Source: Clostridiaceae bacterium BRH_c20a (GTDB lineage Bacteria > Bacillota > Peptococcia > Peptococcales > BICA1-8). Taken from it: a DNA stretch of 64,000 nucleotides. Below the pieces are notes generated by a model, which ran no database searches, was not told the origin of the DNA, and was given only the letters and a program-made list of their open reading frames with translations. The stretch is taken from NCBI GenBank assembly GCA_000961765.1, contig LADT01000054.1, positions 1 to 64,000 on the forward strand, in the 5' to 3' direction. This document shows, piece after piece, positions 33,158 through 60,680 of this stretch. Made by a program: the position numbers and the translations under genes. How positions within the stretch are numbered: the stretch's first letter is position 1; every line of letters starts with the position of its first letter.

Positions 33158-33202
33158 GTATTATCCTAAAAGTTCGAGAAAGCCAGGATGGGAGATGGAA
33201 TA

Positions 33203-33667: not shown

Positions 33668-33735
33668 AGACAATTATTGGTAGGACATTGATTTGCTAGT
33701 TTCTAAAAACAACTATTTTTTAGGAGCGTGAAAAT

Positions 33736-34098
33736 ATGAAGAAAGTACTTATTGTTGATGATGCAGCCTTTATGAGGCTGACAATTAGATCAATTCTAGA
33801 AAAAAACGGATTTGAAATTGTCGGTGAGGCTGAAAATGGAGAAAAGGGTGTTCAGAAGTACAAGGAATTAAAGCCTGATTTAGTTACTATGGATATAACA
33901 ATGCCCGAAATGACTGGCATAGAGGCACTGAAACACATTAAGGAATATGACCCTAATGCAAAGGTCGTTATGTTTTCAGCAATGGGGCAGGAATTAATGG
34001 TCAGAGAAGCAATTATAAACGGTGCCAAATCTTTTATTGTAAAACCTTTTACGGAAGATCATGTAATGCAAGTCCTTAATAAGATATTAATAATATAA
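33736..34098 (+). CDS. cheY: Chemotaxis response regulator CheY
   Basis: A 120-residue single receiver. It has the acidic pair in KVLIVDDAAFMRLTIR, phospho-acceptor Asp53 in LVTMDITMPEMTG, Thr/Ser in MFSAMGQE and Lys in FIVKPF. The sequence type (DDAAFMR, MPEMTGIEAL) is that of flagellar CheY in Gram-positives. It likely binds the switch protein FliM/FliY. The ribosome binding site TTTTAGGAGCG precedes the ATG. It lies between cheX and cheA in one operon. Confidence 0.92.
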   Translation: MKKVLIVDDAAFMRLTIRSILEKNGFEIVGEAENGEKGVQKYKELKPDLVTMDITMPEMTGIEALKHIKEYDPNAKVVMFSAMGQELMVREAIINGAKSFIVKPFTEDHVMQVLNKILII

Positions 34099-34139
34099 AT
34101 GTTTGCTGTTGAATAATAGTTTTTTAGGAGGTGATTAAA

Positions 34140-36224: not shown

Positions 36225-36249
36225 AGAACAAAGGAAAGGGGATGAAAAT

Positions 36250-36744
36250 ATGGCAGATTTAGTTGAGGATATTATGGAAATGGAAGAGGACACTCAAAAA
36301 GGCAGGTTTTTGACCTTTTCACTGGGGAAGGAAAGCTACGGCATAGAAATCAAATACGTCACTGAAATTATAGGAATCCAGGCTATCACAGAGATACCGG
36401 AACTTCCTGAGTATGTGAAGGGTATTATCAACCTAAGGGGTAAGATAATCCCTGTAATGGATGTCAGGCTTCGTTTCAAAAAGGAACCAAGAGAGTATAA
36501 CGATAGGACTTGTGTTGTTGTAATTGACATCAAGGATATATCTATAGGACTTATTGTTGACACTGTCTCGGAGGTGCTTACTATTCCGGAAAATAGTATT
36601 GTCGAACCGCCAAAAATGAATAAAGGCTTCAATAACAGGTATATTAAGAATATTGGTAAAGTTGGAAATGATGTAAAATTACTGCTTGATTGCGAAAAGC
36701 TGCTTACAGAAAATGAACTGGAAGATTTAAGTGAAGCAATGTAA
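36250..36744 (+). CDS. cheW: Chemotaxis adaptor CheW
   Basis: A 164-residue CheW domain with an acidic 18-residue N-terminal extension. Blocks: FLTFSLGKESYGIEIKYV, IPELPEYVKGIINLRGKIIPVMDVR, IGLIVDTVSEV. It couples CheA P5 to the receptor tips. It lies 25 bases after cheA and 41 bases before the MCP gene. A second cheW is at 58466 and a fragment of a third at 52552; this copy is the more diverged of the three. Confidence 0.92.
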   Translation: MADLVEDIMEMEEDTQKGRFLTFSLGKESYGIEIKYVTEIIGIQAITEIPELPEYVKGIINLRGKIIPVMDVRLRFKKEPREYNDRTCVVVIDIKDISIGLIVDTVSEVLTIPENSIVEPPKMNKGFNNRYIKNIGKVGNDVKLLLDCEKLLTENELEDLSEAM

Positions 36745-36785
36745 AATATTGAAAAAAAATTTAATTTGTAAAGGGGAGTTAATGG

Positions 36786-38627
36786 ATGCAATGGTTTTAT
36801 AATATGAAAATTGCCTCAAAATTGATTACAGGTTTTATTCTTGTAGCTATTATTGCAGGAATAGTAGGAGTAATAGGTGTTATTAACATTAAAACGATGG
36901 ATGCTCTAAATACTGACATGTATCAGCGGCATACCGCAACATTGCCTGATTTAGCAAATGCAGCCCGGACTTACCAGAGGGAACGTGTTGAGTTAAGAAA
37001 TATATATTTACAAACTGATGCCAGTAAAAGACAGGAAATTTTAAATAAATTTAAAGATTTTGATAAAAATATAAGTCAGAGCTTAGCAAATTTCGATGCC
37101 GGAATAAAAGATTCAAGTGTTCGTGAAAGTTTCGATGCATTATCTAAAGCCATAAATGATTTTTACCAATTCCGGGACGATGTGGTAAGTCTTGTTCAAG
37201 CAAATCAAATGGATGAGGCATATAATCTCCTAACTGGAAGCCAGGCTAGCCAAATAGCAGAAGTAGTCCAGTCAAGGACAGATGAGCTTTTTAAATTAAA
37301 AATAGACCTGGCAAAAGAAAGTTCGGATGCAAACACAGCCGCCGCTAATACCGCTACAGTAACAATGATTGCGGTAATAATAGCAGGTGTGATAATTGCA
37401 ATAATACTTGGTATCTTCATATCTCGTACTATAAGCAAGCCGGTAAATAAAATGGTTGAAGTCGCTGACAAACTCGCGGTAGGGGATGTAAATGTAAATG
37501 TTAAAGCAGACACCAAGGACGAAATCGGTAGTCTTGCCCAATCCTTTGGCAGGATGATTGAAAATATTCGCGGACAAGCTATGGCTACTGAAAGGATAGC
37601 TGCAGGAGACCTAACTGTGGAGGTTGCTGTTAAATCGAAAAACGACCTCCTGGGCAAAAAGCTATCCGAAATGGTAGAGAAAAACAATGAGGTATTAACT
37701 AATATTGCTTCTGCTTCAGAACAGGTGGCAGCAGGGTCAAAACAAGTATCAGATTCAAGTATAGCTCTTTCACAGGGGGCTACCGAGCAGGCAAGCTCAA
37801 TCGAGCAACTGACTGCATCCCTTGAAGAGATATCCTCACAGACAAAGCTCAATGCCGAGAATGCCAATCAGGCAAATGAACTGGCAGAAAATGCTAAGTC
37901 CAATGCTGTTCAGGGTAATACTCAGATGAAAGAAATGCTCCAGGCCATGGAAGAGATCAATGAGTCTTCTGCTAATATTTCCAAGATTATCAAGGTTATT
38001 GATGAAATTGCATTCCAGACTAATATCCTCGCCCTAAATGCCGCAGTTGAAGCCGCAAGAGCAGGACAACATGGGAAGGGTTTTGCAGTGGTAGCAGAGG
38101 AAGTAAGAAACCTTGCAGCACGTTCAGCAAAAGCAGCTGGTGAAACAACCGATATGATTGAAGGTTCGATCAAGAAGGTGGAAGGCGGCACAAAGATTGC
38201 AAAAGATACCGCTGAAGCCTTGAATAAAATAGTAGATGGTATTGAGAAAGTAGCAAACCTTGTAAATGATATCGCTGTTGCTTCTAATGAACAGGCTACA
38301 GGTATAGGACAGGTTAATCAGGGAGTTATGCAGGTATCCCAGGTTGTACAGACTAACTCAGCAACTTCCGAAGAAAGTGCTGCCGCAAGTGAAGAACTTT
38401 CAAGTCAGGCTGGACTCTTAAAAGAGATGGTTGGTAAGTTCAAGCTTAAGCAAAATGTTAAATCTTACAGCAAACTGGATGAACTTAGCCCGGAAGTATT
38501 AAAAATGCTTGAGGATATGTCAGAAAAAAAGAAAACAAATTCGGGGTCTAAGGAAGAGGCTTACTCCGAAGTAGCTGCTACGAAAACTAAGATTTCATTA
38601 AGCGATAAAGAATTTGGAAAGTATTAA
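36786..38627 (+). CDS. Methyl-accepting chemotaxis protein with four-helix-bundle sensor
   Basis: A 613-residue receptor. TM1 at about 12-34; an extracellular four-helix-bundle (4HB_MCP) domain at about 35-188 (RTYQRERVELRNIYL, FQ-type helices); TM2 at about 191-212; HAMP at about 213-265; a cytoplasmic signalling region to about 560. The hairpin tip IDEIAFQTNILALNAAVEAARAG and VAEEVRNLA are intact, so it should dock CheA/CheW. The tail SELDELSPEVLKMLEDMSEKKK is a charged extension after the coiled coil. It sits inside the che operon, which suggests it is the dedicated receptor. Ligand unknown. Confidence 0.92.
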   Translation: MQWFYNMKIASKLITGFILVAIIAGIVGVIGVINIKTMDALNTDMYQRHTATLPDLANAARTYQRERVELRNIYLQTDASKRQEILNKFKDFDKNISQSLANFDAGIKDSSVRESFDALSKAINDFYQFRDDVVSLVQANQMDEAYNLLTGSQASQIAEVVQSRTDELFKLKIDLAKESSDANTAAANTATVTMIAVIIAGVIIAIILGIFISRTISKPVNKMVEVADKLAVGDVNVNVKADTKDEIGSLAQSFGRMIENIRGQAMATERIAAGDLTVEVAVKSKNDLLGKKLSEMVEKNNEVLTNIASASEQVAAGSKQVSDSSIALSQGATEQASSIEQLTASLEEISSQTKLNAENANQANELAENAKSNAVQGNTQMKEMLQAMEEINESSANISKIIKVIDEIAFQTNILALNAAVEAARAGQHGKGFAVVAEEVRNLAARSAKAAGETTDMIEGSIKKVEGGTKIAKDTAEALNKIVDGIEKVANLVNDIAVASNEQATGIGQVNQGVMQVSQVVQTNSATSEESAAASEELSSQAGLLKEMVGKFKLKQNVKSYSKLDELSPEVLKMLEDMSEKKKTNSGSKEEAYSEVAATKTKISLSDKEFGKY

Positions 38628-38691
38628 AAAAGTAGTACAGGGCAGGGGGAGCCAACGGGCTCTCCTCCCCTTCTAAAGGGCAGGTGCAGTA

Positions 38692-39507
38692 GTGTTTACA
38701 ATTACAGACAAAGAATTCAAGCAATTGGCAGCCTATATAAAAGCAAATTACGGTATCCATTTGAAAGATGAAAAGCGTACTTTGGTAACAGGGAGACTTC
38801 ACAATGTGCTTATACAAAATAATTTCAGTAATTTCTCTGAGTATTATAAGCACATAATATCGGATAAAACTGGTGAGGCGGCAGCAATGCTGATAAATAA
38901 AATTACTACTAACCATACCTTTTTTATGAGAGAGGCCAACCATTTCTTCTATTTCAGGGATAAAGTACTTCCCTACCTTACAAGTATGGTAAAGGAAAAA
39001 GATTTAAGAATATGGAGTGCCGGCTGCTCCTCTGGGGAAGAACCTTATACCCTGGCTATGGTTATAGATGAATTCTTAGGAAATGAAAAAATGTGGTGGG
39101 ATGCAAAAGTTTTAGCAACGGACATATCAAGCAAGGTGCTTGAAGAAGCCCACAAAGGCATATACAGCAGTGAGGAGATAGCTACCATTCCTTCTCAATG
39201 GAAACTCAGTTATTTTAAGAAATATGACAGTGAAAATTATATCCTCGTTGATAAAATTAGGAATGAAGTGATATATAGAAAGTTTAATCTCATGGATGGA
39301 ACTTTTCCATTTAAAAGGAAGTTTCATGTGATATTCTGTAGAAATGTAATGATATACTTTGACGCTCAGACAAAATGTGAACTGGTTAATAAGTTTTATG
39401 AGTCGATGGAGTATGGAGGTTATTTGTTTATCGGGCATTCTGAATCTCTTAACCGTGAAGAAACAAAGTTTAAATATATTATGCCGGCATTATACAGAAA
39501 GGAATAA
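38692..39507 (+). CDS. cheR: Chemotaxis receptor methyltransferase CheR
   Basis: A 271-residue SAM-dependent methyltransferase that methylates glutamates of MCPs. The N-terminal all-helical part (ITDKEFKQLAAYIKANYGIHL) is followed by the SAM-binding motif IWSAGCSSGEEPYTLAM and the RNVMIYFD block with GGYLFIGHSE. Length is normal. The start is GTG 38692. A GC-rich hairpin, GGGGGAGCC-AAC-GGGCTCTCC, sits in the 64-base gap after the MCP gene at about 38645-38667 and may reduce downstream expression. Confidence 0.92.
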   Translation: MFTITDKEFKQLAAYIKANYGIHLKDEKRTLVTGRLHNVLIQNNFSNFSEYYKHIISDKTGEAAAMLINKITTNHTFFMREANHFFYFRDKVLPYLTSMVKEKDLRIWSAGCSSGEEPYTLAMVIDEFLGNEKMWWDAKVLATDISSKVLEEAHKGIYSSEEIATIPSQWKLSYFKKYDSENYILVDKIRNEVIYRKFNLMDGTFPFKRKFHVIFCRNVMIYFDAQTKCELVNKFYESMEYGGYLFIGHSESLNREETKFKYIMPALYRKE

Positions 39508-39519
39508 AGGGGTGACAAG

Positions 39520-40545
39520 GTGCAGCTTGGAAAAAGGATAAGAGTATTGGTAGTAGATGATAGTATAGTGTTCAGAGAAGTATTATCAAGAGGGATTTCC
39601 TCAGATCCGAATATAGAAGTTGTGGCTACAGCCAATGACCCCTTTGATGCTAGGGACAAGATAATTCAATACGAACCTGATGTCATGACTTGTGATGTAG
39701 AAATGCCTAGAATGAACGGAATCGAGTTTATCCAGCGGCTCATCCCCCAATATCCCCTGCCTGTCATTGTGGTAAGTACTGTAAGCAATGCAGTGTTTGA
39801 TGCCATGGATGCAGGAGCAGTTGATTTTGTAGGTAAGCCTGATGTAAGGTCTGTAAAAAGTGTCGAAAGTTTTATTAATGAAATGATTATAAAGGTGAAA
39901 ATTGCATCAAGAGCTAAGGTAATACCTGGGAGAGTACAGAATGACTACCATAGAATTGCAGGCAATTCTAATGTCGATACTGGCAGGATAATTGCAATTG
40001 GAGCTTCTACGGGAGGGACCGAGGCCATCTTTAATGTGCTTAAGTATTTGCCCAGGAATATACCAGGGATTGTGATAGTTCAGCATATACCTTCTGGTTT
40101 TTCACGTATGTTTGCCGAAAGGCTTAATGCCTCAACCTATCTGAATATTAAAGAAGCACAGACAGGTGATTATGTTGATAAGGGGCGGGTGTTGATAGCA
40201 CCTGGTGACCGGCATATGAGAATCAAAAAGGCTGGTGATAGTTATAGAGTCCAATGCTTTGAGGGCGATAAAGTAAACGGACACTGTCCATCTGTTGATA
40301 TCCTTTTTGAATCGGTTGCAAAGGAAGCAGGCAAAAATGCTATTGGCGTAATCCTCACCGGCATGGGTTATGACGGGGCAAAGGGCCTACTTTCTATGAG
40401 AAGGAAAGGTGCAAGAACCATAGGCCAGGATGAGAAGTCTTCAGTAGTTTATGGTATGCCAAAGGTAGCTTTTAATATTGGCGCAGTAGAAAGGCAGTCT
40501 TCCTTGGATAATATGGCCCAAATGATATATTCTATGCTAGGTTAG
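39520..40545 (+). CDS. cheB: Chemotaxis methylesterase/glutamine deamidase CheB
   Basis: A 341-residue protein: an N-terminal receiver (VLVVDDSIVFREVL, phospho-Asp59 in MTCDVEMPRMNG) and a C-terminal methylesterase with triad Ser in GASTGGTEAI, His in VIVQHIPSGFS and Asp in GMGYDGAKGL. It removes methyl groups from MCPs when phosphorylated by CheA. The start is GTG 39520 after AAAGGGG. It is 12 bases after cheR. Confidence 0.93.
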   Translation: MQLGKRIRVLVVDDSIVFREVLSRGISSDPNIEVVATANDPFDARDKIIQYEPDVMTCDVEMPRMNGIEFIQRLIPQYPLPVIVVSTVSNAVFDAMDAGAVDFVGKPDVRSVKSVESFINEMIIKVKIASRAKVIPGRVQNDYHRIAGNSNVDTGRIIAIGASTGGTEAIFNVLKYLPRNIPGIVIVQHIPSGFSRMFAERLNASTYLNIKEAQTGDYVDKGRVLIAPGDRHMRIKKAGDSYRVQCFEGDKVNGHCPSVDILFESVAKEAGKNAIGVILTGMGYDGAKGLLSMRRKGARTIGQDEKSSVVYGMPKVAFNIGAVERQSSLDNMAQMIYSMLG

Positions 40546-40554
40546 GGTGATAAA

Positions 40555-41022
40555 ATGGATAAGATAGTGGGAATTGGAGAATATGCAATTTCAAATCGCC
40601 GAGAGGACATTATTAAGACTTTTGCATTGGCCTCTTGTGTGGCAGTAACGGCTTACAGCCCATCAAAGGGTGTGGCTGGCATGGTTCATATTGCTCTTCC
40701 ATCACCTCCGCATAATGAAGATAGCAGCATATCTCCCGGATACTATGCAGTTACTGGAGTGCCTTTATTGATAAATAAAATGTGTACGGTGTATGGCTGT
40801 ACCACAGACGAATTGAAAATTGGTCTTTACGGTGGGGCAAACTCAATTAGGGAGGATATTTTCAAGATAGGCAAAAAAAATGTAGTTACAGTAAAAAATA
40901 TACTACAAAATATGAACCTGTTAATTGATATAGCCGAAATAGGTAACACCTTAAGCCGTACTTTGGCCATGGATGTATCAACGGGTAAGGTTAAAATAAC
41001 CCTTCTACCTATTACAATATAA
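40555..41022 (+). CDS. cheD: Chemoreceptor glutamine deamidase CheD
   Basis: A 155-residue CheD. The catalytic Cys is in LASCVAVTAYSP, the His in GMVHIALPSP, and the Thr lies in the same family pattern. CheD deamidates receptor glutamines and also modulates CheC-type phosphatases. The ribosome binding site is AGGGTGA. It lies nine bases after cheB. Length is normal. Confidence 0.9.
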   Translation: MDKIVGIGEYAISNRREDIIKTFALASCVAVTAYSPSKGVAGMVHIALPSPPHNEDSSISPGYYAVTGVPLLINKMCTVYGCTTDELKIGLYGGANSIREDIFKIGKKNVVTVKNILQNMNLLIDIAEIGNTLSRTLAMDVSTGKVKITLLPITI

Positions 41023-41040
41023 AAAGTAAAGGTGGTCAAA

Positions 41041-44000
41041 ATGCAAAAAAGAATATTGATGGGGGAAAACCTTGAGCTTGCAGCTGCAACCCTATCTTGT
41101 ATTGGAGATGGGGTTATTTCAACAGATCTTGAAGGCAGAATTATATATATGAACCAGATAGCGGAAGAAATTGTTGGTTGGGAAGCAAAAAAAGCTATAG
41201 GAGAACATTTTGATAAGGTTTTTACTACCTATAATGCGGATACAAAAAAGCCAACAATAAGTCCCATTGCCTATGTCCTTGAAAATGATACAGCAAAAGG
41301 CCTTGAGAATAACACCATTTTTATTTCCAAGGAAAATATCGAAAAGTATGTTTCAGCAACATGCTCTCCGGTTAAAGCTGCAGATGGTTCTATCATAGGT
41401 GTTGTAATAGTATTCAGAGATATTACAAGATTAAAACAGTTGGAAATGCAGCATAGAAATGAGGAAAAAAATTTAAAAACTGTATTTAACTTATCACCGG
41501 TTAACATAGTTACTATTAATGAGAATGGAATAATCAGCCATGCTAACAATACTGCCTTGCAATTAATTAATAAGAAAAAAGAAGAAGTGATTGGTAAAAG
41601 ATTTGGTGATAGCTTTAATTGTACCGGAAGCACTAAAGATGAACGGGGATGTGGCTTTGGTCCCAATTCCCCCAATTGTGAGTTGAGGAAGGCAATTGTT
41701 TTAGCAATTAAGGAGAAAGAAGCTACAGGCTCTATCGAACTACGTAAAGAACTAATTAAAGATGAAAGAGAGACTGAATTGTGGTTTAAGACAGACGTAA
41801 TACCCATTATGTTAGATGGAATGAGGAATGCGATTGTCACACTATCGGATATTACGGAAAACAAAAAAGAGGAAATTACGCTTATTAAGTCAAGGGACTA
41901 TAGTAACAATCTTCTCGACCAGATTCCTTCTTTGGTATGGAAGTCAGACGTAGGCCTAGGGTGTAATTATGTAAATAAGGTATGGAGAGAATTTACAGGT
42001 CTTACTCTCGAAGAAGCATCTGGCTTTGGCTGGACTGATGTAATTCATCCAAAAGACTTAGATACATATTTAACGGTGGCTATCGAAGCTAAACTTAACA
42101 ATAGTTCATATCAAAGTGAGATTCGTTACCGCCGATATGACGGTGAGTATCGGCTTTGTCTAGTTGTAGGAACTCCTTATAGTGATTTGGAAGGAGAGTT
42201 TGAAGGTTATATAGGTTTGATTTATGACATTACCGAACGCAAAGAGATTGAAGAGGCTTTAATTGAGAGTGAGGAAAAATTGAGAACCCTGTTTAACAAT
42301 ACTTCAGATGCAATCTTTCTTCATAAGTTCACAGGGGAAGAGGGGAAACCTAGTACTATTATTGAAGTTAATGATGTAGCTTGCAAAAGACTTGGCTATG
42401 CAAGAGAAGAATTAATAGGTATGTCACCAGTTGAGTTTAATAAGTCAGTTTCTTACAATAAGTTAATTGATTTACTTAATACGGCTGAAATCAATTCCCA
42501 TTATACCATTGAAAAGGAGCATGTCGCAAAGGATGGCAGAGCTATTCCGGTAGAAGTGAATATTCATTGCTTTGAAATAAAAGGTGAGAAGGTGTTCCTA
42601 TCTCTTGTCCGTGATATAACAGAGCGAAAAAAATCTGAAAAGAAAATACAAGAGAATCAGGCAAAATACCGATCCCTTTTTATGAATATGCATAGTGGTT
42701 ATGCCTATTACAAAGTTGTATTTAATGATAAGGAAAAGCCTGTAGATTTAAAAATTATTGAAGCAAATGAAGCCTTTGAAAAAATAGCTGGTATTAGTAA
42801 GAAATATCTTATAGGTAAGCATCTCACTGATCTCTTACCTATAAGCAAAGATATTTTTGCTGAAATATCCCAAAAGTATGTAAGCATACTAGCACGGGGG
42901 AAAAGTGTATATATCGAGGAAATTTACTTTAATTCCTCCGCCAAATGGTATTCACTTGCAATATATAGCCCTAAAAAAAATCATGTGGTGACTATAATTA
43001 CTGATATTACCCGTATTAAAGAGTCGGAAATTACTCAAAAAAAAGCAAAAGAAGCAGCAGAAGCTGCCAACAAGGCAAAAAGTGAGTTCTTAGCTAATAT
43101 GAGTCATGAAATTCGCACTCCTATAAATGGTGTTGTTGGAATGATAGATCTTACTTTGCTAACTGAATTAAATGATGATCAAAAAGATAACCTGATTACT
43201 GCAAAGACTTGTGCAGATTCGCTTTTAAATATAATTAACGATATATTGGATTTTTCCAAAATGGAAGCAGGCAAATTGTGCCTGGAAAATGTTAACTTTA
43301 ATATAAAGGAGTTTATAGAAGAGATAGTTAAGGCGCACTCACCCCTAGTAGTAGAAAAAGGGCTTGAGCTTAATTATACTTTTTCTTCTACGATACCACA
43401 GTTCCTTGTCGGTGATCCACACAGGCTACGTCAGGTGTTGAATAATCTAATAAGTAATGCAATGAAGTTTACTGAGAGTGGCGACATCACTTTGTCAGTT
43501 AAAAAAACAATTGAAAATGATAATGAGGTAGAATTAAAATTTACTGTAACGGATACAGGAATCGGGATTGCTTCCCAGGATCTTGTACGGATATTCGAGA
43601 GCTTTGTTCAGGTAGATGGATCCTTTACGAAAAAGGTAGGCGGTACAGGACTGGGACTTGTCATAGCAAAGCAGCTTGTTGAAATGATGGGTGGAAAGAT
43701 ATGGGTTGATAGTCAAATAGGCAAAGGTAGTACTTTTTACTTCCTGCTGAAATTCAAGATGGGTAGTCTAGAAGCAGAAGAGAAAGGGCAGGTGCCGCAA
43801 ATAACAAAGGCAGCAAAGCCTTTATATATCCTTTTAGTGGAAGATGATACTATTAACCAAAAGGTAACTATAAAAATGTTAAAAGAAAAAGGCCACATTG
43901 TTGATACTGCAAATAACGGCAAGGAGGCATTGCAGTTATTTAAACGGGGTAAATATGATGTAATTTTAATGGATATCCAAATGCCCGAAATGGATGGGAT

Positions 44001-44559
44001 TGAGGTATCAAAGAGGATAAGAGAAATGGAAGATCAATGTAAGCACACCCCAATCATAGCTACTACAGCTCATGCCCTGCAAGGTGATAAAGAGAAATTC
44101 CTGAATTTAGGTATGGATGGATATATTTCAAAGCCTATACGGATGAGTGAACTATTTTATACCCTTGATACAGTTATATCAACTCATGAGAATGGGGGGG
44201 GTTCTTTAACGGATAGAGTAGAGATTGGAGAAAATGGGGAGGTCACATTTATAGAAAAAGGCCATTACAAACCCGATGAGCATATTTATTTTGTGCTTTC
44301 TGAAGTTGCGGAATATATTAAAGAAATTGAATCAGCTATGGAAAACGGTAATCTTGTGGCCATGGGGAAGATAGCTCATGATATTAAATCTGTGTGCAAC
44401 GAGATTGATGCTGATGAATTAAAATATGCAGCATTTAAAATAGAACTTGCTGTAAGACGCGGTAACTGGGAAGATGTTTCTGAGTACGTAAGAAAGTTGA
44501 GTCATAAGTTTAAAGCATTTAAGGAGTCTATACTTTCACTAAAGGAGTGGAAAAGGTGA
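41041..44559 (+). CDS. Cytosolic PAS-rich hybrid histidine kinase with receiver and HPt
   Basis: A 1172-residue protein. Five PAS domains run from about 15 to 665 (DITRLKQLE, DITENKKEE, DITERKEIE, DITERKKSE, DITRIKESE mark their ends). HisKA carries His689 in NMSHEIRTPINGV. The HATPase domain has NLISNAMKFTE, DTGIGI and GTGLGLVIAK. A receiver at about 930-1045 has LVEDDTINQ and phospho-Asp in VILMDIQMPEMDG. A C-terminal HPt lies at about 1075-1165 (MGKIAHDIKSVCNEI). There is no membrane segment. A full internal phosphorelay inside a che operon suggests it feeds the receiver encoded next. Start: ATG 41041 after AAAGGTGG; the GTG at 41032 overlaps that site. Confidence 0.9.
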   Translation: MQKRILMGENLELAAATLSCIGDGVISTDLEGRIIYMNQIAEEIVGWEAKKAIGEHFDKVFTTYNADTKKPTISPIAYVLENDTAKGLENNTIFISKENIEKYVSATCSPVKAADGSIIGVVIVFRDITRLKQLEMQHRNEEKNLKTVFNLSPVNIVTINENGIISHANNTALQLINKKKEEVIGKRFGDSFNCTGSTKDERGCGFGPNSPNCELRKAIVLAIKEKEATGSIELRKELIKDERETELWFKTDVIPIMLDGMRNAIVTLSDITENKKEEITLIKSRDYSNNLLDQIPSLVWKSDVGLGCNYVNKVWREFTGLTLEEASGFGWTDVIHPKDLDTYLTVAIEAKLNNSSYQSEIRYRRYDGEYRLCLVVGTPYSDLEGEFEGYIGLIYDITERKEIEEALIESEEKLRTLFNNTSDAIFLHKFTGEEGKPSTIIEVNDVACKRLGYAREELIGMSPVEFNKSVSYNKLIDLLNTAEINSHYTIEKEHVAKDGRAIPVEVNIHCFEIKGEKVFLSLVRDITERKKSEKKIQENQAKYRSLFMNMHSGYAYYKVVFNDKEKPVDLKIIEANEAFEKIAGISKKYLIGKHLTDLLPISKDIFAEISQKYVSILARGKSVYIEEIYFNSSAKWYSLAIYSPKKNHVVTIITDITRIKESEITQKKAKEAAEAANKAKSEFLANMSHEIRTPINGVVGMIDLTLLTELNDDQKDNLITAKTCADSLLNIINDILDFSKMEAGKLCLENVNFNIKEFIEEIVKAHSPLVVEKGLELNYTFSSTIPQFLVGDPHRLRQVLNNLISNAMKFTESGDITLSVKKTIENDNEVELKFTVTDTGIGIASQDLVRIFESFVQVDGSFTKKVGGTGLGLVIAKQLVEMMGGKIWVDSQIGKGSTFYFLLKFKMGSLEAEEKGQVPQITKAAKPLYILLVEDDTINQKVTIKMLKEKGHIVDTANNGKEALQLFKRGKYDVILMDIQMPEMDGIEVSKRIREMEDQCKHTPIIATTAHALQGDKEKFLNLGMDGYISKPIRMSELFYTLDTVISTHENGGGSLTDRVEIGENGEVTFIEKGHYKPDEHIYFVLSEVAEYIKEIESAMENGNLVAMGKIAHDIKSVCNEIDADELKYAAFKIELAVRRGNWEDVSEYVRKLSHKFKAFKESILSLKEWKR

Positions 44560-44960
44560 AGATATTAATAGCAGAAGATGATCTAGCAAGTAGGAAATTT
44601 CTATTTAAGTTACTTTCCCAGTATGGAGAATGTGATCTGGTGGTAGATGGGTTGGAAGCTCTAGATGCTTTTTTGATGTCGTTAAAGGAGGGGGATCCTT
44701 ACGACCTTATCTGCCTTGATATCATGATGCCCAAGGTGGATGGTGTAAAAGCCCTGAAGGCAATCAGGGACATGGAAAATCAGAAAGGGATTCTTTCTGA
44801 GAACAGATCGAAAGTTATAATGACTACTGCCCTAGCTGAAACACAATTTGTACAGAATGCATTTGAAATTGGCTGTGAAGCCTATGCTGCCAAACCTATA
44901 GATACGGCAAAGCTGGTTGAGGTTCTGCAAAAGCTGGGATTAATTGCAAAGAAAGAATAG
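44556..44960 (+). CDS. Single-domain response regulator
   Basis: A 134-residue receiver: ILIAEDDLASRKFL, phospho-Asp in LICLDIMMPKVDG, TTALAET and AKPID. It is slightly longer than CheY, with an insert around RDMENQKGILSENR. It has a GTGA start-stop overlap with the hybrid kinase gene, so the two are translationally coupled; it is the likely acceptor from that kinase's HPt. It has no output domain of its own and may pass the signal to the HD-GYP protein next. Start: GTG 44556 with AAAGGAG eight bases before. Confidence 0.88.
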   Translation: MKILIAEDDLASRKFLFKLLSQYGECDLVVDGLEALDAFLMSLKEGDPYDLICLDIMMPKVDGVKALKAIRDMENQKGILSENRSKVIMTTALAETQFVQNAFEIGCEAYAAKPIDTAKLVEVLQKLGLIAKKE

Positions 44961-44978
44961 TATACATAAGGGTGGTCA

Positions 44979-46019
44979 ATGAGGATGGTAGAAAAAGTGA
45001 TATCCGAGTGCAGTGAAGGTGATATTTTGGCTGCTGATGTGTTTAATATAAATGGTGTAACATTGGTGGCAAAGGGTACGGTAATAAATGAATATATAAA
45101 GGAACGGTTAATTGACTTGGGGATTGAAAGTATCCGTATTTGTAATACCTCTGTAGCTTTTGAAAATAGCAGCACTCCTTATGACAAATTCAAAAAGAAC
45201 TATAAGGGTGCTATATTGAATACTAAGAATATGCTTCATGACCTTACCTCAGGAAAACCCCTTGATTATCAAAAAGTTTCCTTAATAACCAGCCAGATTT
45301 ATAAAAATATTAATGAGAATGATAGTATTATTCGGTTTATGTCGGAAATCCGTAGTAGTGATGAATATACCTATACTCATTGTGTGAATACGGCTTTCTA
45401 TTCTATGCTGATTGCAAATTGGCTCAAACTTTCTGACCATGAGATTAATAAAGTTATTCAGTCGGGGCTATTGCATGATATTGGTAAATCAAAGATTCCA
45501 AGCCAGATTCTTTGTAAAGGTGGTATCCTTACAAAGGAAGAGTTCGAAGTCATAAAAATGCACACTATTTTAGGCTATGAAATAGTAGAAACAATAGATG
45601 ACATTGACCGTGATGTTAAAAATGCCATCCTTCTTCATCATGAAAGGATAGATGGCTCCGGATATCCGTTAAAAGCGTCTTCAGATTGCATAAATCTTTA
45701 TACTAGGATTGTAGCTGTAGCTGATGTGTTCGACGCAATGACATCCGACAGGGTATACAAAAAACGGGTGACTCCCTTCGAGGTCTTTGAAATGTTTCAG
45801 ACAGTGGGTATTGGAATGTTTGACATAAAAGTACTAAGAGTGTTTTTGAATAATCTGGCTGCTCATTTGGTAGGGGCAAAAGTTATACTTAGTAACGGTG
45901 AAATAGGGGAAATTGTTTATATCCCTTTGCAAAACTTAACTTGCCCTATTGTAAAAGTTGCATTTGGCTATGTAGATCTATCACAAGAAAAATCAATACT
46001 CATATTAAGTATGATATAG
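44979..46019 (+). CDS. HD-GYP domain c-di-GMP phosphodiesterase (predicted)
   Basis: A 346-residue protein. An N-terminal DUF3391-like segment (about 1-75, ILAADVFNINGVTLVAKGTVI) is followed by the HD-GYP domain: HCVNTAFYSMLIANWL, LLHDIGKSKIP, HTILGYEIV, LLHHERIDGSGYP and VAVADVFDAMTSDRVYKK. All metal and GYP residues are present, so it probably hydrolyses c-di-GMP. It is the last gene of the riboswitch-controlled operon, which closes a possible feedback loop. Nothing recognisable as a terminator follows; a decayed sensor gene fragment follows instead. Confidence 0.9.
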   Translation: MRMVEKVISECSEGDILAADVFNINGVTLVAKGTVINEYIKERLIDLGIESIRICNTSVAFENSSTPYDKFKKNYKGAILNTKNMLHDLTSGKPLDYQKVSLITSQIYKNINENDSIIRFMSEIRSSDEYTYTHCVNTAFYSMLIANWLKLSDHEINKVIQSGLLHDIGKSKIPSQILCKGGILTKEEFEVIKMHTILGYEIVETIDDIDRDVKNAILLHHERIDGSGYPLKASSDCINLYTRIVAVADVFDAMTSDRVYKKRVTPFEVFEMFQTVGIGMFDIKVLRVFLNNLAAHLVGAKVILSNGEIGEIVYIPLQNLTCPIVKVAFGYVDLSQEKSILILSMI

Positions 46020-46043
46020 ATCAAAGGATAGGTAGGACATTAC

Positions 46044-46207
46044 ATTAATTCATACCATCAGGGATTCACTTGGCCCAAAGATGTAGCTGATGGGATTATT
46101 AATGCCTTAAGAAAAGTGGTGACATACATTCAACATTTATTGAATATATGGATTGGAAAAATTGACCTGCGAATGGGAATATGGGATATCTCAACGATTT
46201 AAATAAA
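46044..46207 (+). pseudogene. Remnant of an ABC-substrate-binding sensor gene
   Basis: About 160 bases that align with 53640-53805, the start of the intact sensor gene: TTAATTCATACCATCAGGGA, ATTCACTTGG, CAAAGATGTA, TGAATATATGGATTGGAAAA. The conserved translation is NSYHQGFTWxKDVxDGII. Frameshifts and substitutions destroy the frame downstream, and neither signal peptide nor later domains are present. It is a truncated duplicate. Confidence 0.8.
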
Positions 46208-46250
46208 AAATCTAAATGTGCTAATTTTAGACAAAAAGGAATTGAAAAAT

Positions 46251-47696
46251 GTGAAACTTAAAAACTATAGTATTACGAGGTCTATTATAATTATTTCTTT
46301 TTTACTAATGTGTATTTTGACATTGTCATTAATAATTACAGTCAATAGAGTGGAAAAACAGTATCAAACACTATCACTTAATATGGCAAAATCATATTTT
46401 GATACTATTATTGAACTTAGAAAATGGAATGCATCCCATAATGGAGTCTATGTTCCTATAACTGAGGAAGTCCAGCCCAATCCTTTTTTAGAAGATCCTC
46501 TAAGAGATGTTGAAACTCTCGAAGGGATTAAGCTTACAAAAATTAACCCCGCCTACATGACAAGGCTTTTAGGTGAATTGGCTGAGGCAGATTTAGACCT
46601 GCAATTTCATATGACCAGTTTAATGCCGATTAACCCGATTAATAATCCAGATAATTGGGAAAGAGAAGCCTTGAAAGACTTTGAAAACAATATCGGTAAT
46701 AAATGGGAAACAAACGAGACCGAGAATGGGACTAACTTGCGTTATATGGAGCCATTAATAGTCGAGGAATCATGCCTCGAATGTCATGCTAAACAAGGAT
46801 ATCAGATTGGTGATGTTCGGGGGGCTATTTCAATTAATTTGCCCTATGGAAATTTTCAAAGGGCTATGAAGTCTGATATTTTCCGAACAGTATTAATATA
46901 TCTTTCCTTTATTATTGTTATGGGTATAATACTTATATATTTTGGACGAAAGTCTTATTTCGCAGAAAATGAGCGAAAACATTTAATACATGAACTAGAA
47001 CGTTCTAATAAAGAATTAGAGCACTTTGCCTATGTTGCTTCTCATGATCTAAGGGAACCCTTACGTAAAGTATCTGCCTTCGGCCAATTATTAAATGAAT
47101 CTTTAGAAGAAAAAATAAATGAGGATGAAAAGGAAAACCTCGGGTTTATGATTGATGGTGCCCGGAGACTCCAAGAAATGATAGATGACCTATTATCGTA
47201 TTCCCGTTTAACTACCCAAGCTAAACCCTTTCAGATAATAGACCTTAATGAAGTGATAAACGAATTAAAAGGGAATGCTTTACACACTGAAATTTTAATG
47301 ACAGGTGCATTAATAGAGGTACCTCAGCTACTTCCTAAAGTATACGGTGATCTTATTCAAATTAGACAGCTATTGCAAAACTTAGTAGCTAATGGGATAA
47401 AGTATCAAAAGAAAGATGTAAAACCTGTAATTACTATTCGATATATAGTACAGGATAGTAAGTATTTAAAAATTGAAGTTGAGGACAATGGCATTGGAAT
47501 TGACGAAAAGTATTTCGAGATAATTTTTATAATGTTCAAACGGCTCCACGGCCGTGGACAGTATGAAGGTACTGGGCTAGGTTTGGCAATATGTAAAAAA
47601 GTTGTTGAACGACATGGTGGAACAATTGGCATGAATTCAGTAGTTGGTAAGGGATCAATCTTTTGGTTTACTATTCCCTTACTATCGGAGAAATAG
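46251..47696 (+). CDS. Membrane histidine kinase with DUF3365 heme-binding (CxxCH) sensor
   Basis: About 481 residues. TM1 at about 7-30; an extracytoplasmic DUF3365/Tll0287-like domain to about 208, with a c-type heme motif CLECH in ESCLECHAKQGYQIGDVRGAIS; TM2 at about 212-232; a short linker; HisKA with FAYVASHDLREPLRKVSAFGQLL at about 255-280; HATPase with NLVANGIKYQ, DNGIGI and GTGLGLAICK. The SHDLREPL form belongs to bacteriophytochrome-like kinases, whose regulators resemble Rcp1. A covalent heme suggests redox, NO or CO sensing (inference). Start: the GTG at 46251 is preferred over GTG 46218 because AAAAGGA is suitably placed. It leads a three-gene operon. Confidence 0.88.
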   Translation: MKLKNYSITRSIIIISFLLMCILTLSLIITVNRVEKQYQTLSLNMAKSYFDTIIELRKWNASHNGVYVPITEEVQPNPFLEDPLRDVETLEGIKLTKINPAYMTRLLGELAEADLDLQFHMTSLMPINPINNPDNWEREALKDFENNIGNKWETNETENGTNLRYMEPLIVEESCLECHAKQGYQIGDVRGAISINLPYGNFQRAMKSDIFRTVLIYLSFIIVMGIILIYFGRKSYFAENERKHLIHELERSNKELEHFAYVASHDLREPLRKVSAFGQLLNESLEEKINEDEKENLGFMIDGARRLQEMIDDLLSYSRLTTQAKPFQIIDLNEVINELKGNALHTEILMTGALIEVPQLLPKVYGDLIQIRQLLQNLVANGIKYQKKDVKPVITIRYIVQDSKYLKIEVEDNGIGIDEKYFEIIFIMFKRLHGRGQYEGTGLGLAICKKVVERHGGTIGMNSVVGKGSIFWFTIPLLSEK

Positions 47697-47710
47697 AAGG
47701 GAGGAGAAAT

Positions 47711-48157
47711 ATGCAAAGCTATGCGGAGTCCATACAGATATTGCTGATAGAAGATGATCCTGCTGACCAAAAACTCACTAAAATTTCCTTGGGAAATAAT
47801 AAAGTGGCAAATACACTGCATATTGTTAATAGTGGTGAAGAAGCTCTCGATTATTTATATCACAGGGGGAATTTTGCGCATGGTACTCCTAGGCCGGATC
47901 TAATACTTTTAGATTTAAATATGCCGGGTATCGGGGGTCAAGAAGTATTAAAAATAATTAAAGAAGACGAAGGCCTAAAATCTATTCCCATTATTATTTT
48001 GACTACATCTGATGCTGAAGAGGATATTGTGCGAAGTTATAAAATGCATGCTAATGGTTATATTAAAAAACCAGTAGATCTTATCGGATTTCAACAAGTA
48101 GTCCAGTCAATTCAAAACTTTTGGTTTGTTGTAGCCAAATTGCCACCTAAGGAATAA
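47711..48157 (+). CDS. Rcp1-like response regulator
   Basis: A 148-residue receiver with the Rcp1/phytochrome-associated pattern: ILLIEDDPADQKLTKISL, a long helix then YLYHRGNFAHGTPRPDLILLDLNMPGIGGQEVL (phospho-Asp in LLDLN), TTSDAEEDI and IKKPVDLIGF. Such regulators are the usual partners of SHDLREPL kinases, so it is the likely direct target of the heme kinase 14 bases upstream. The ATG at 47711 has GGGAGGAG eight bases before it; the longer frame lacks a site. Confidence 0.9.
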   Translation: MQSYAESIQILLIEDDPADQKLTKISLGNNKVANTLHIVNSGEEALDYLYHRGNFAHGTPRPDLILLDLNMPGIGGQEVLKIIKEDEGLKSIPIIILTTSDAEEDIVRSYKMHANGYIKKPVDLIGFQQVVQSIQNFWFVVAKLPPKE

Positions 48158-48174
48158 AGGGAAGGATAGTTTAT

Positions 48175-49104
48175 ATGATAATTAAAAAAGAAAAAATAAT
48201 AAATATTTTATTATGTGATGATGATCCTGTTGATAGAAAGCTGATTAGGGCATACGTATCAAAGCTCACTCAATATAATTTTGAGTTTACTGAAGCTGGG
48301 GAGGAAGAAGAAATAATTATTGCCCTGGAAAGGGGAGGCTTCGACTTGATTTTGCTTGATATTCAAATGCCTGGCAGGACAGGTCTGGAGTGGTTAGCGG
48401 AATTAAGTAAAAGAAAAATTGCCCCTGTCATTATTTTAACTGGCCATGGGAGTGAAATGATTGCAGTCGACGCTATGAAAAACGGTGCAGCTGATTATCT
48501 TCCGAAATCAGAGTTAAATTTCGAAAATTTAAACAGGACAGTTAATAATGCCCTCGAAAAATGGGCGTTACTTAAAAAACTGGAGGAATACCAGATAAAA
48601 TTAGAATATCTAGCACGGACTGATGAATTAACAGGTTTGATGAATCGGAGAAGCTTAATGGAAAGGCTTGTGGAAGAAATAAGCAGAGCTACCCGATATA
48701 ACCACCCACTCTCCGTATTAATTATGGATATAGATTGTTTTAAAAAAATAAATGATGTTTATGGCCATCTTGAAGGTGATAAAGTTATAGAAGATACTTC
48801 CAAAATGATTTTAGAAAGTATACGCAATATAGATTTTTCAGGTAGGTATGGTGGCGATGAATTTGTAATTATACTTCCTGAAACGTCGTTAAATGAGGCC
48901 AGAAAGATTGGGGAAAGAATCCGTAGCAAAATCGCGCATTCAGTAGTTTTTCGTGATGGAGATATACCTATAAAATATACTGTAAGTATAGGTGGTGTTC
49001 AATTATCAGATGTGTATCATCTTTCGAGTGATGAACTACTAAAAAAAGCGGATGATGCTTTATATCAAGCAAAGCATAAAGGCGGAAATTTAATTTGTTG
49101 TTAG
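48175..49104 (+). CDS. Response regulator diguanylate cyclase (REC-GGDEF)
   Basis: A 309-residue protein: receiver at about 8-125 (LLCDDDPVDRKLIRAYV, phospho-Asp in LILLDIQMPGRTG, LTGHGSE, LPKSE) and a GGDEF domain at about 140-308 (RTDELTGLMNRRSLM, MDIDCFKKINDVYGH, YGGDEFVIILPE). RNID five residues before GGDEF is an intact inhibitory site. It should make c-di-GMP when phosphorylated, and is the output of the heme-kinase operon. It lies 17 bases after the receiver gene. It ends in a gap holding a GACCTGGCA/TGCCCGGTC hairpin (49132-49160) between convergent genes. Confidence 0.92.
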   Translation: MIIKKEKIINILLCDDDPVDRKLIRAYVSKLTQYNFEFTEAGEEEEIIIALERGGFDLILLDIQMPGRTGLEWLAELSKRKIAPVIILTGHGSEMIAVDAMKNGAADYLPKSELNFENLNRTVNNALEKWALLKKLEEYQIKLEYLARTDELTGLMNRRSLMERLVEEISRATRYNHPLSVLIMDIDCFKKINDVYGHLEGDKVIEDTSKMILESIRNIDFSGRYGGDEFVIILPETSLNEARKIGERIRSKIAHSVVFRDGDIPIKYTVSIGGVQLSDVYHLSSDELLKKADDALYQAKHKGGNLICC

Positions 49105-49222: not shown

Positions 49223-49957
49223 TTAAAATAAGTTAATCCACTTGTGTGCCAGTTCATAATCAAATTGTGTACCGGCACCTTTTTCTATCTCAGATAGGGC
49301 AATTTCTATGGTTAAGGCTTTTCTGTAGGGGCGGTCACTCGTCATGGCATCAAATGAATCTGCAATAGCTATTAAACGTGCGCCAAAGGGTATATTCTCT
49401 CCTTTAAGTCTGTCTGGATAACCATTTCCGTCATACCTTTCATGATGATGTTTAATAAAAGGTAAAATGTCATAAGTTAGCTCTAAGGGCGTAAGTATTT
49501 TAACGGCTGTTATGGGATGGCTTTTAATTAATTTGAACTCTAAATCAGTTAGTGTACCTGGTTTATTTAATACTTTTTCTGTAATACCTATTTTGCCTAG
49601 ATCGTGTAATGATGCTGCCAGACGAGCTTGTTCTGTAAATGTTTTATCAACTCCTAATTTATTTGCTAAGGAAACTGCGTATTCAGCTACCCGTGACGAA
49701 TGTCCTTGGGTATAGATATCCTTTGCTTCTAGAGTTAGGGCTAAAGTCTCAATTGTAGCCATAAATATTTTTTGGTTAGCAAAATGGGCAGCTTGTAAAT
49801 CCTTAACTTGTTTTTTTAAAACATCGTAAAGTTCATCCATTTCAGCTACATGAAGCATACAGAGCCGTTCTTTCGCTTGAGCTATGTTCTTTACTTGATC
49901 TAATTCATGAATGAGATGTTCATTTTCAGAGTGGAAATCATTATTATTTATCATCAT
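49223..49957 (-). CDS. HD-GYP domain protein (predicted c-di-GMP phosphodiesterase)
   Basis: A 244-residue protein: a coiled-coil N-terminus (about 10-65) and a complete HD-GYP domain. Blocks: HSSRVAEYAVSLA, ASLHDLGKIGI, HPITAVKIL, HHHERYDGNGYPDRLKGENIP, IAIADSFDAMTSDRPYRKA. All metal ligands are present. There is no receiver or membrane segment. It is the third gene of the MCP-V4R-HD-GYP minus-strand operon, 11 bases after V4R, so the three probably share one signal. Confidence 0.9.
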   Translation of the reverse strand: MMINNNDFHSENEHLIHELDQVKNIAQAKERLCMLHVAEMDELYDVLKKQVKDLQAAHFANQKIFMATIETLALTLEAKDIYTQGHSSRVAEYAVSLANKLGVDKTFTEQARLAASLHDLGKIGITEKVLNKPGTLTDLEFKLIKSHPITAVKILTPLELTYDILPFIKHHHERYDGNGYPDRLKGENIPFGARLIAIADSFDAMTSDRPYRKALTIEIALSEIEKGAGTQFDYELAHKWINLF

Positions 49958-49968
49958 TTACACACCTT

Positions 49969-50418
49969 TTAAAAAAAGAATAGTTCAAATTGGCAGTAGG
50001 AATCACCATGGGAGATACCCTTGGTTTGGGTACACTTAGCACGTCTCCCTGTAATATTTTCTGCTGCTCCTGCTATGAGTCCGCTTTCAAAGTGACAAAG
50101 CAGTTCTCCAGTATTGGGTAATCCCGAACAAGTCATGCACTCCCATACTCTAACAATAATATTGTTTTCATCAATATTTTCAATTTCGGGAATTCCTATT
50201 CTATGGTCTATTATAAAGTCCATAAATTGTTCTGTCGTGTTTACAGGTATTTGTTTACCAACAGATTTACCAGTCATATAAAGTGTAGGGCCTGCACTAT
50301 CTCCCAAAATTTCTTTTATTCCTATTAAACGTAATAACCTAAAGGTGCTAAGGGGGATATCTGAACTAAGGCATGTTCTTGAGTTATTGATTAAATCAGT
50401 GTAGCTATGCATCGACAT
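49969..50418 (-). CDS. V4R-domain (4-vinyl reductase-like) ligand-binding protein
   Basis: A 149-residue protein with the V4R small-molecule-binding pattern. It has ITGRRAKCTQTKGISHGDSYCQFE at the end (the usual EtxCxxxGxxxCxF), preceded by WECMTCSGLPN and CHFESGLIAGA. Such domains bind hydrocarbons, or zinc with a small ligand, and appear in XylR/DmpR-type regulators. Here it stands alone between an MCP gene and an HD-GYP gene. It may act as a soluble sensor for that receptor operon (inference). AGGAGG lies six bases before its ATG. Confidence 0.75.
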   Translation of the reverse strand: MSMHSYTDLINNSRTCLSSDIPLSTFRLLRLIGIKEILGDSAGPTLYMTGKSVGKQIPVNTTEQFMDFIIDHRIGIPEIENIDENNIIVRVWECMTCSGLPNTGELLCHFESGLIAGAAENITGRRAKCTQTKGISHGDSYCQFELFFF

Positions 50419-50434
50419 AAAATCCTCCTAAGAG

Positions 50435-52072
50435 TTAGTTTAATTTAAAGGAAGAAACAGATTTATTTAATTTCTGCGACAAAAGCGAAAGGTTTTTACT
50501 GGCTATAGTTATCTCATTTACCGCTCTTGCCTGCTCTTCACCAGAGCTGGCTATTTCCTCGGTACTGGCTGCAAATTCTTCGCTAACCGTAGCAATCTCT
50601 TGAATAGCTAGTTTGACATTATGGCTATATTCATTCATTTTATTGGTATTATCAGTTACCTGATCTATATGTATTAAAAGCTTTTGGGAGTTTTCTTTAA
50701 TAATCTCAAAGGAATTGCCGGTATTATCCATGCTTTCTACACCTAAAGTAACCTCATTCGAGCTATCTTTTATTGTATTAACAGCGGCGGAGATACTACT
50801 TTGTATTTCTTTTATAAGAATTGATATTTGCTTTGTTGCATCTCTGGATTGTTCAGCTAGTTTTCGGACTTCTTCTGCTACTACTGCAAAACCCTTGCCA
50901 TGTTCACCGGCCCTTGCTGATTCTATGGCAGCATTTAGGGCAAGAAGATTAGTTTGTTCGGCAATGCTGTTTATTAAGCGTACTATTTCATCTACCTGTG
51001 AAGATTTATCACCTAAGTTAATAATGATTTGTCTTGATTGATTAACTTTATCATTGATAGTCCCCATTTGAGTTATGGTCTGGGATACATAATTTGAGCC
51101 TTCAATTACATTATCTAGTACAATCGTTCCTGCCTGATTCATTTCTTTAGACATATTATTTATTTGATTTATTTGTTCAATAAGGTTTTCGACGTTGGCG
51201 GCAGTTTCAGAAATTTGTGAAGTTTGTTCTTGTGCTCCGGCAGCTACTTCCTGTGTTGAGCTGCCAACATTTTGGGCATATTGATCAACTCTTTCGCTGG
51301 AATCAACTAATTGTTGACTAGAACCAGCGACTTCTAAGGATGCTTGGTTAATTTGTTTTATCATTAATTTGTAATTATTCTGCATCATGCTGATGCCTGC
51401 TATTAAAGCCCCTATTTCATTTTTTGACTTATAGCTAAAAATTTCAATTGCTAGATTTCCTCTAGCCAACTCGGAAGTAATTTTAACAAGCTGAGCCAAA
51501 GGCTTCAGTGCTTGCCTATCCATCAATAACCATCCGAGGATAGTTCCAATAAATATTAAAAAAATCCCAACAACCAGGATATTATAGGGTAATCGTGCTT
51601 TTTGTTTAGCAATATTCTCAAATTCAGCTGTTACATCATTGGCAATATTAAAAAGATTAGTTGTATTAATGTCAAAGTCATTTAATGAAAAGGTTCTTTC
51701 GTCCATAATTTTGTTTAGATATTCTTTATATGTACTCCACATTTGTTCCATTTCTATTAATCTTTCTTGTAGCACTTTATTATTAACGGGAAGAATACTT
51801 AGTTCACTATCACCTTTAGTAAAACCTAACAGTGTTTTTTCAAAAAGGTTTTGTGTATTAAGTAAATCCTTTTGTATTGCTTTATTACCTGCTTTATAAA
51901 TAAGGGTTTGCCTGGCCATTTTTTCCGTAAGAGCTCTTTGCCTTCCAGCTAAATTGATATATCGGGAGAATTCATTTTGTGTTTGGATATAGGTAAAGAT
52001 ACTTACTGCAACAATTGAGCTAATAACTAAGATTCCTAATAAAAGAACATTAAATTTGGTTCTGATTTTCAT
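50435..52072 (-). CDS. Methyl-accepting chemotaxis protein with PilJ/NarX-like sensor
   Basis: A 545-residue receptor: TM1 at about 8-28, an extracytoplasmic helical domain at about 30-165, TM2 at about 166-186, HAMP at about 187-240, and a signalling region with tip [23 protein letters not shown] and [15 protein letters not shown]. The sensor starts [17 protein letters not shown], the P-box-like helix of PilJ and NarX family domains (known for nitrate/nitrite sensing in NarX). It heads the operon with V4R and HD-GYP. A Crp/Fnr-type palindrome lies 59 bases upstream of its start. Confidence 0.9.
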
Positions 52073-59468: not shown

Positions 59469-60680
59469 ATGAACATAATTGGAGAGCTTCTAGGCAGAAG
59501 GGGAGAAACTTATCCCTTTAGAGATTTGAATTATAAGAACATTACTGCAGGGTTTATATGTGGGTTATTAGCGGTAACAGGTCCGCCAGCCCTTATTTTA
59601 GAAGCTGCAGCAAATGGCAATTTTACAACTACCCAGACTATCCTTTGGATGTTTTCCGTTTATGTATTTGGTGGCCTTTATAGTATCCTTATTCCACTAT
59701 ATTACCGAATGCCTATAGTTGGTGCCCATACTATTACTGGGGTCGCTTTTTTAGTAACAGTTACCTCAAAATTTACCTATTATGAGCTAATAGGTGCATA
59801 TATTTTTTCAGGTATATTAATTCTTACTATTGGCTATTTTGGTGTATTTTCAAAATTAATGGGCTATGTACCCAAACAGATCATTGCGGCAATGTTAGCG
59901 GGAATGATCATGAAGTATATGATTAATTTTGCGCTTTCTATTAGCGTCCTGCCGGTGATTGGTGGAGTATCTTTAGTGGTCTTTTTTATTTTTAGCAAAT
60001 GGAATAAACGGATACCCCCTATAGTTGCCGCCATTTTTACAGCATTTATTTTATTGCTTTTAACACAGCCACTAAATAGTAATGGACTGACAGCAGCTTT
60101 TATTTTTCCACATATTCAACTTCCTGAATTTAGCTTACTTAGCTTTGTTTCTGTTTCCATTCCCCTAGCTCTACTCATTTTAAGTAATGATGCAGCTGTG
60201 GGAGTAAGTGCATTAGAACAAAATGACTATAATCCGCCCGTAAATCAAATTGTTTCCTGGAGTGGGTTTTTTTCTATTATTACAAGTTTTTTTGGTGGAC
60301 AATCTGCAAATATCGCCGGGATGATGACAGCCATTTGTTCTGATAAAGAGGCAGGACCAAAGGAAAAAAGGTATATGGGGGCTGTTGTCCTAGGAATTAT
60401 ACTTATTTTATTCGGCTTATTTGCGTGGAAACTAGTGCCATTTATTCAGACCTTGCCACAAACATTTGTCTCCATCCTTGTTGGATTTGCCCTTCTAGGT
60501 GTGTTTGCAAATAGTCTGCAGCTTAGCTTTTCCAACCCAATTATGAAAACTAGTGTGGCATTTACTTTTATTATAGCCGTATCAAACCTTACGATTTTTA
60601 GTATCAGTGCTCCCGTCTGGTCATTGTTAATCGGTACATTTATTGCTCGATGTATTGAAAATCAGAAGAGTACTTTATAA
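59469..60680 (+). CDS. BenE-like benzoate/H+ symporter-family permease
   Basis: A 403-residue membrane protein with about 11-12 helices. The family pattern is visible: NITAGFICGLLAVTGPPALIL, MPIVGAHTITGVAFL, GYVPKQIIAAMLAGMIMKY, LLILSNDAAVGVSAL, FFGGQSANIAGMMTAICSD. These fit the BenE group of the NCS2/AzgA-like 14-helix fold. It probably imports an aromatic or purine-like acid by proton symport; the substrate is uncertain. The ribosome binding site is AGAGGAG before ATG 59469. It lies downstream of the second riboswitch-like element, with the kinase fragment in between. Confidence 0.8.
   Translation: MNIIGELLGRRGETYPFRDLNYKNITAGFICGLLAVTGPPALILEAAANGNFTTTQTILWMFSVYVFGGLYSILIPLYYRMPIVGAHTITGVAFLVTVTSKFTYYELIGAYIFSGILILTIGYFGVFSKLMGYVPKQIIAAMLAGMIMKYMINFALSISVLPVIGGVSLVVFFIFSKWNKRIPPIVAAIFTAFILLLLTQPLNSNGLTAAFIFPHIQLPEFSLLSFVSVSIPLALLILSNDAAVGVSALEQNDYNPPVNQIVSWSGFFSIITSFFGGQSANIAGMMTAICSDKEAGPKEKRYMGAVVLGIILILFGLFAWKLVPFIQTLPQTFVSILVGFALLGVFANSLQLSFSNPIMKTSVAFTFIIAVSNLTIFSISAPVWSLLIGTFIARCIENQKSTL

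Follow-up and report, generated by a model that had tools for sequence, protein, structure and literature searches.

The operon considered here lies within a window of 64,000 nt, the whole stretch of DNA that was analyzed (positions 1–64,000 of contig LADT01000054.1 of Clostridiaceae bacterium BRH_c20a), and consists of three genes on the + strand. The first (46251–47696) encodes a 481-aa sensor histidine kinase in which an sCache_heme domain (Tll0287/DUF3365) bearing a CLECH motif is framed by two transmembrane segments and followed by HisKA and HATPase_c domains. The gene starts at a GTG (46251) with AAAGGA 10 nt upstream, the mechanical open reading frame beginning at 46218 without a Shine-Dalgarno sequence, and its key motifs fall at residues 175 (CLECH), 264 (SHDLREPL), 377 (N box), 412 (G1), and 440 (G2). 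The solved relatives of the kinase core include bacteriophytochrome kinases, among others, and the kinase carries no phytochrome GAF/PHY photosensor, since Pfam returns only PF11845 (E 1e-22), HisKA (1.3e-10), and HATPase_c (4e-26). The second gene (47711–48157, ATG after GGAGGAG) encodes a 148-aa response regulator with a single REC domain (1.6e-20), which is classed as Rcp1-type because its nearest solved relatives are phytochrome response regulators, including RcpA (4e-31), Rcp1 (4e-29), RcpB, and RphyB. The third (48175–49104, ATG start) encodes a 309-aa REC-GGDEF diguanylate cyclase (GGDEF E 3.6e-45) with an intact GGDEF motif, an RxxD I-site (RNID) five residues ahead of it, and a receiver that retains the acidic, Asp, Thr, and Lys residues. 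Its closest solved relatives are the Leptospira DgcR-type REC-GGDEF cyclase and PleD; it is nonetheless distinct from PleD proper (REC-REC-GGDEF), having one REC domain and scoring 197.6 bits against the cut-off of 474 for the NCBIfam equivalog. All catalytic motifs are intact in the three proteins, and the short same-strand gaps between their genes (14 and 17 nt) imply an operon, so that the domains, motifs, and spacing bear out the gene arrangement proposed in the first-pass annotation.

The DUF3365 family was renamed sCache_heme in a February 2026 preprint, which describes it as a Cache domain in which a CxxCH motif is conserved, demonstrates heme c in two newly purified members, and calls the domain rare in Bacillota (PMC12889525). 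The window sensor scores 81.5 bits against the PF11845 profile, for which the cut-off is 24.1, and its CLECH (residues 175–179; 46773–46787, + strand), invariant in nine aligned sequences, falls within the insertion of the Cache fold. An AlphaFold model of kinase residues 1–240 (pLDDT 87.7) has as its top structural match Tll0287 (5b82; 136 residues at Z 15.2), with 9.6 for the second-best chain among experimental structures. The hydrophobic stretches on both sides of the domain lead to a predicted extracytoplasmic location, in agreement with the model, and the genome encodes cytochrome c maturation genes of the CcsA/ResB and CcmF types. Domain, motif, fold, and maturation genes thus support the assignment of the sensor to the c-type-heme family, and covalent loading with heme c would be expected from its sequence. 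Domain, CxxCH, fold, extracytoplasmic site, and fusion to a kinase are all shared with described sCache_heme sensors (PMC12889525; solved structures 5b82, 3b42, and 3b47). The window protein differs from them in belonging to a long-loop subclade that conserves an RxW...(H/Y)xG segment and has no HAMP domain, in directing its output to a REC-GGDEF protein, and in its host, which has Spo0A and is therefore probably a spore-former.

The identity of the ligand can be approached through the cysteines of the kinase, which number only three: C21, in the first transmembrane segment, and the two of CLECH (175 and 178). The axial Cys of the Tll0287-like, redox-associated Cluster 1 of the family is hence missing, and Cys/His heme ligation of the Tll0287 type can be ruled out. 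Among characterized members, a stand-alone protein with the axial Cys behaves in a redox-like manner, and a signaling-type protein, which also lacks the axial Cys, binds NO with slow release and forms no stable complex with O2 (PMC12889525). Given this precedent and the missing redox-type Cys in the window sensor, NO is the first ligand candidate and, by analogy, its probable ligand, which narrows the "redox or gas state" suggested in the first-pass annotation. A second sCache_heme kinase in the same genome (G000:C19:103000-125000; L081, L132), of the HAMP type and accompanied by an OmpR-type regulator, lies in a cluster with homologs of napA, napG, and napH, a NapC/NrfH-like cytochrome, a seven-heme cytochrome, and ResB/CcsA, which makes nitrogen oxides plausible in the chemistry of the organism. 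Alternatively, the sensor could be a redox device in which an internal ligand, the conserved His63 (sometimes Tyr), renders the heme six-coordinate and lets it report on the quinone pool or on extracellular electron transfer. Position 63 is His in most aligned long-type relatives and Tyr in two, lies roughly one turn past the position of the Tll0287 axial Cys (estimated from the structural match by simple offset), and could provide the second axial ligand; multiheme cytochromes, furthermore, adjoin some relatives of the sensor. Against this, relative L166 keeps the His although it has no CxxCH, so that the residue must serve another role too, and the signaling member tested in the preprint acts as an NO sensor (PMC12889525). 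We therefore regard a redox function as rather unlikely, if the most serious of the alternatives, and retain NO as the preferred ligand.

The setting of the Rcp1-like receiver provides a context for the operon. A search for Rcp1-like receivers covered 398 genomes from the phylum plus the groups surrounding two of the hits; it yielded 26 loci in which the Rcp1-like gene is separate, and neighbors were defined as lying within 250 nt. A kinase adjoins this gene in 25 of the 26 loci, and a GGDEF, GGDEF-EAL, or HD-GYP protein does so in 16, the remaining 10 having no c-di-GMP enzyme. After clustering at 60%, such an enzyme accompanies the receiver in 7 of 10 clusters, as opposed to 0 of 18 among the controls (Fisher p 1e-4), which are stand-alone, lower-scoring receivers from the same search and are incompletely matched to the Rcp1-like set. 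The domains of nine cassette c-di-GMP enzymes were confirmed with Pfam, and the cassette kinases take PAS, HAMP, RsbU_N, or 7TM domains as inputs. Sampling of the window organism's own class yielded no close Rcp1 homolog (one scoring above about 50 bits), which leaves the operon without a close comparison, and word searches of the open-access literature returned no description of an Rcp1/GGDEF or Rcp1/HD-GYP cassette.

In two-component systems, receivers dock on their kinase chiefly through helix alpha1. If one kinase serves both receivers of a cassette, their alpha1 helices should resemble each other, and the mean BLOSUM62 score between the Rcp1-like and third-gene receivers is 2.11 within cassettes and 1.18 for mismatched pairs. 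With 10 clusters, none of 100,000 permutations equals this matching; the permutation treats the clusters as independent, which is only approximately true. When c-di-GMP cassettes are taken alone, the figure is 7 of 100,000, and an earlier, smaller set had given 13 of 5,040. Cognate partners rank first in 8 of the 10 pairs, and the result is stable at four clustering thresholds and upon leaving out one cassette at a time. Outside alpha1 the receivers show no excess likeness (93,391 of 100,000 permutations), and in sliding windows the clearest response comes among those covering this helix. Codon identity at positions with the same residue is alike in alpha1 (0.45) and elsewhere (0.46), which speaks against gene conversion as the source of the likeness. 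In the window itself, the alpha1 helix of the REC-GGDEF receiver lies nearest that of the Rcp1-like protein (2.0; next 1.5) when compared with five other receivers tested there. In six loci (L123, L126, L127, L191, L192, and L195) the Rcp1-like alpha1 has His where most have Asp; a paired His is seen in the third receiver of all of these except L127, in which this receiver is shortened at its start in the ORF call.

Alpha1 matching speaks to shared docking, phosphotransfer itself lying beyond what it can show. Both receivers probably dock on, and track, a single kinase, as DivK and PleD do with DivJ and PleC, and the wiring of the kinase to the GGDEF protein, claimed in the first-pass annotation, draws support at the sequence level from the conserved cassettes and the co-adapted docking helices. 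The kinase might instead serve the Rcp1-like receiver alone, with the REC-GGDEF protein a mere neighbor under the control of another kinase, as the 10 of 26 loci in which kinase and Rcp1-like genes occur without a c-di-GMP enzyme could suggest; this is improbable in view of the co-adaptation of both receivers within cassettes, confined to alpha1, and of the lack of any such neighbor beside the control receivers.

The sensor and the kinase core appear to have different affiliations. A tree built from 44 sensors places the window domain as sister (98%) to that of L099, an sCache_heme-GGDEF fusion from the same phylum, within a clade of 14 members (99%), eight of which are GGDEF fusions, and groups the HAMP/OmpR-type kinases apart. 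For the kinase core, the nearest cores among the loci compared belong to Rcp1 cassettes, with scores of up to 205 bits, against 34 for that of L009, an sCache_heme kinase. Since the kin of the sensor are GGDEF fusions and those of the core are cassette kinases, the sensor was probably grafted onto a cassette kinase. The sCache_heme-GGDEF fusions (L099, L108, L164, L011, L014, and L015) share sensor subclade and second messenger with the window operon; they are one-component proteins with the sensor joined directly to GGDEF, whereas the window system is two-component. The GGDEF-fused relative L166 (G206:C159, 101–1396) has lost the heme-binding motif entirely, and an HD-GYP gene adjoins it.

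Taken together, these observations lead us to favor, with moderate confidence, a reading of the operon as a two-component c-di-GMP switch in which a heme c Cache sensor, most likely responding to NO, acts through the kinase on two receivers. In this model, the extracytoplasmic domain, with its covalent heme c, would sense a small ligand, probably NO, and thereby control a kinase that would pass phosphate to the Rcp1-like regulator and to the similarly docked receiver of the REC-GGDEF protein. Phosphorylation of the latter should favor dimers and c-di-GMP synthesis, and the Rcp1-like protein would probably take the part that DivK has beside PleD, that of a phosphate sink or allosteric partner. 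The residue at H+4 of the kinase is Glu (HDLRE) and not the Thr or Asn of the phosphatase motif, as is also the case in several cassette kinases (HDLQE); phosphatase control may hence differ from that of classical systems, and the Rcp1-like protein may be the route by which the signal decays. More tentatively, and with the balance slightly against it, the operon may exemplify a modular and apparently unnamed cassette of kinase, Rcp1-like receiver, and REC-c-di-GMP enzyme, in which one kinase addresses two alpha1-co-adapted receivers while inputs (PAS, 7TM, HAMP, and sCache_heme) and enzymes (GGDEF, GGDEF-EAL, and HD-GYP) are swapped. The window version would then carry a grafted, outside-facing c-heme NO sensor, making it an NO-to-c-di-GMP relay with the sensor inside the kinase.

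The operon is a new variant assembled from known parts. In Caulobacter and Agrobacterium, the divK and pleD receiver genes form an operon, and DivJ and PleC act on both products (PMC7003649). There, too, kinases address one receiver that stands alone and another that is joined to a GGDEF cyclase domain; the window operon departs from this alphaproteobacterial system in its Rcp1-type receiver, in the single REC of its cyclase where PleD has two, in including the kinase gene, in its heme sensor, and in its phylum. With the Cph1/Rcp1 phytochrome systems it has in common the SHDL(Q/R)EPL kinase core and the Rcp1-type receiver, but it lacks their photosensor and adds a REC-GGDEF gene. A 2022 review tabulates pathways from NO to c-di-GMP, and these rely on separate HNOB or FIST sensor proteins (PMC8846402). 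The H-NOX/HnoK/HnoB and NosP/NahK/NarR systems among them follow the same course that is proposed here, from NO through a kinase to a receiver-linked c-di-GMP enzyme, but they sense NO through a distinct auxiliary protein (PMC8846402), whereas the window sensor would be an outside-facing heme c domain of the kinase. No HNOB-domain partner occurs among the neighboring genes scanned. If the model holds, coupling a cyclase to a kinase whose heme c detects extracellular NO would amount to a novel input path, and this in a group reported to have few such sensors. The alpha1 result, for its part, provides a sequence test for receivers that share a kinase and is usable on orphan receivers generally. 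In one further locus (L198; G484:C24), a single Rcp1-like/REC-HD-GYP pair is preceded by a row of four large kinases whose cores are similar, an array that perhaps feeds several inputs into one relay.

Once produced, c-di-GMP would act on global targets, including an OFF-type riboswitch ahead of the che genes. A c-di-GMP-I aptamer (RF01051; 33022–33104, + strand; 76.5 bits with the covariance model, gathering threshold 35) lies upstream of cheX, the first gene of a che operon (cheX-cheY-cheA-cheW-mcp-cheR-cheB-cheD; 33188–41022, + strand). An intrinsic terminator follows at 33130–33150 (+ strand), its 5' arm overlapping a CCGGUA (33128–33133) that can pair with UGCCGG (33098–33103) at the 3' end of the aptamer, so that ligand binding should free the terminator. 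The arrangement looks like an OFF switch; unconstrained folding of the leader also settles on the terminator form (−33.6 versus −30.4 kcal/mol for the enforced antiterminator), which gives no proof of polarity, and the assignment hence rests on the layout. More c-di-GMP should accordingly lower, and not raise, che expression. The first-pass annotation had placed the sensor operon directly after this riboswitch-controlled operon; the riboswitch stands, but the two are separated by genes for a hybrid kinase, a lone receiver, and an HD-GYP protein (41032–46019), followed by a 231-nt gap (46020–46250) without any convincing coding remnant. The HD-GYP gene (44979–46019, + strand), 18 nt past the lone receiver gene, encodes a probable c-di-GMP phosphodiesterase with HD and HHExxDGxGYP motifs and may belong to the che transcript, in which case high c-di-GMP levels would silence the enzyme that breaks the molecule down, a positive feedback.

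The closed loop of sensor, c-di-GMP, riboswitch, and che that the first-pass annotation proposed is possible. The link to che would run through a c-di-GMP pool shared by the 13 c-di-GMP-I riboswitches and about 20 GGDEF matches of the 4.5 Mb genome, and is weaker than that between kinase and cyclase. A specific loop, in which this REC-GGDEF protein is the main c-di-GMP source for the che switch or the operon itself sits on the che transcript, is a doubtful prospect: the operon does lie near che, and from cheD to the kinase the + strand has terminator-like sites only inside the hybrid kinase gene, but the number of riboswitches and GGDEF matches, the gap ahead of the kinase, and the distance of at least 13 kb from switch to operon all count against it. 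A convergent operon on the − strand (49223–52072) encodes an MCP with a PilJ-type sensor, a V4R-domain protein, and an HD-GYP protein; a gene for a BenE-type benzoate transporter is found at 59469–60680.
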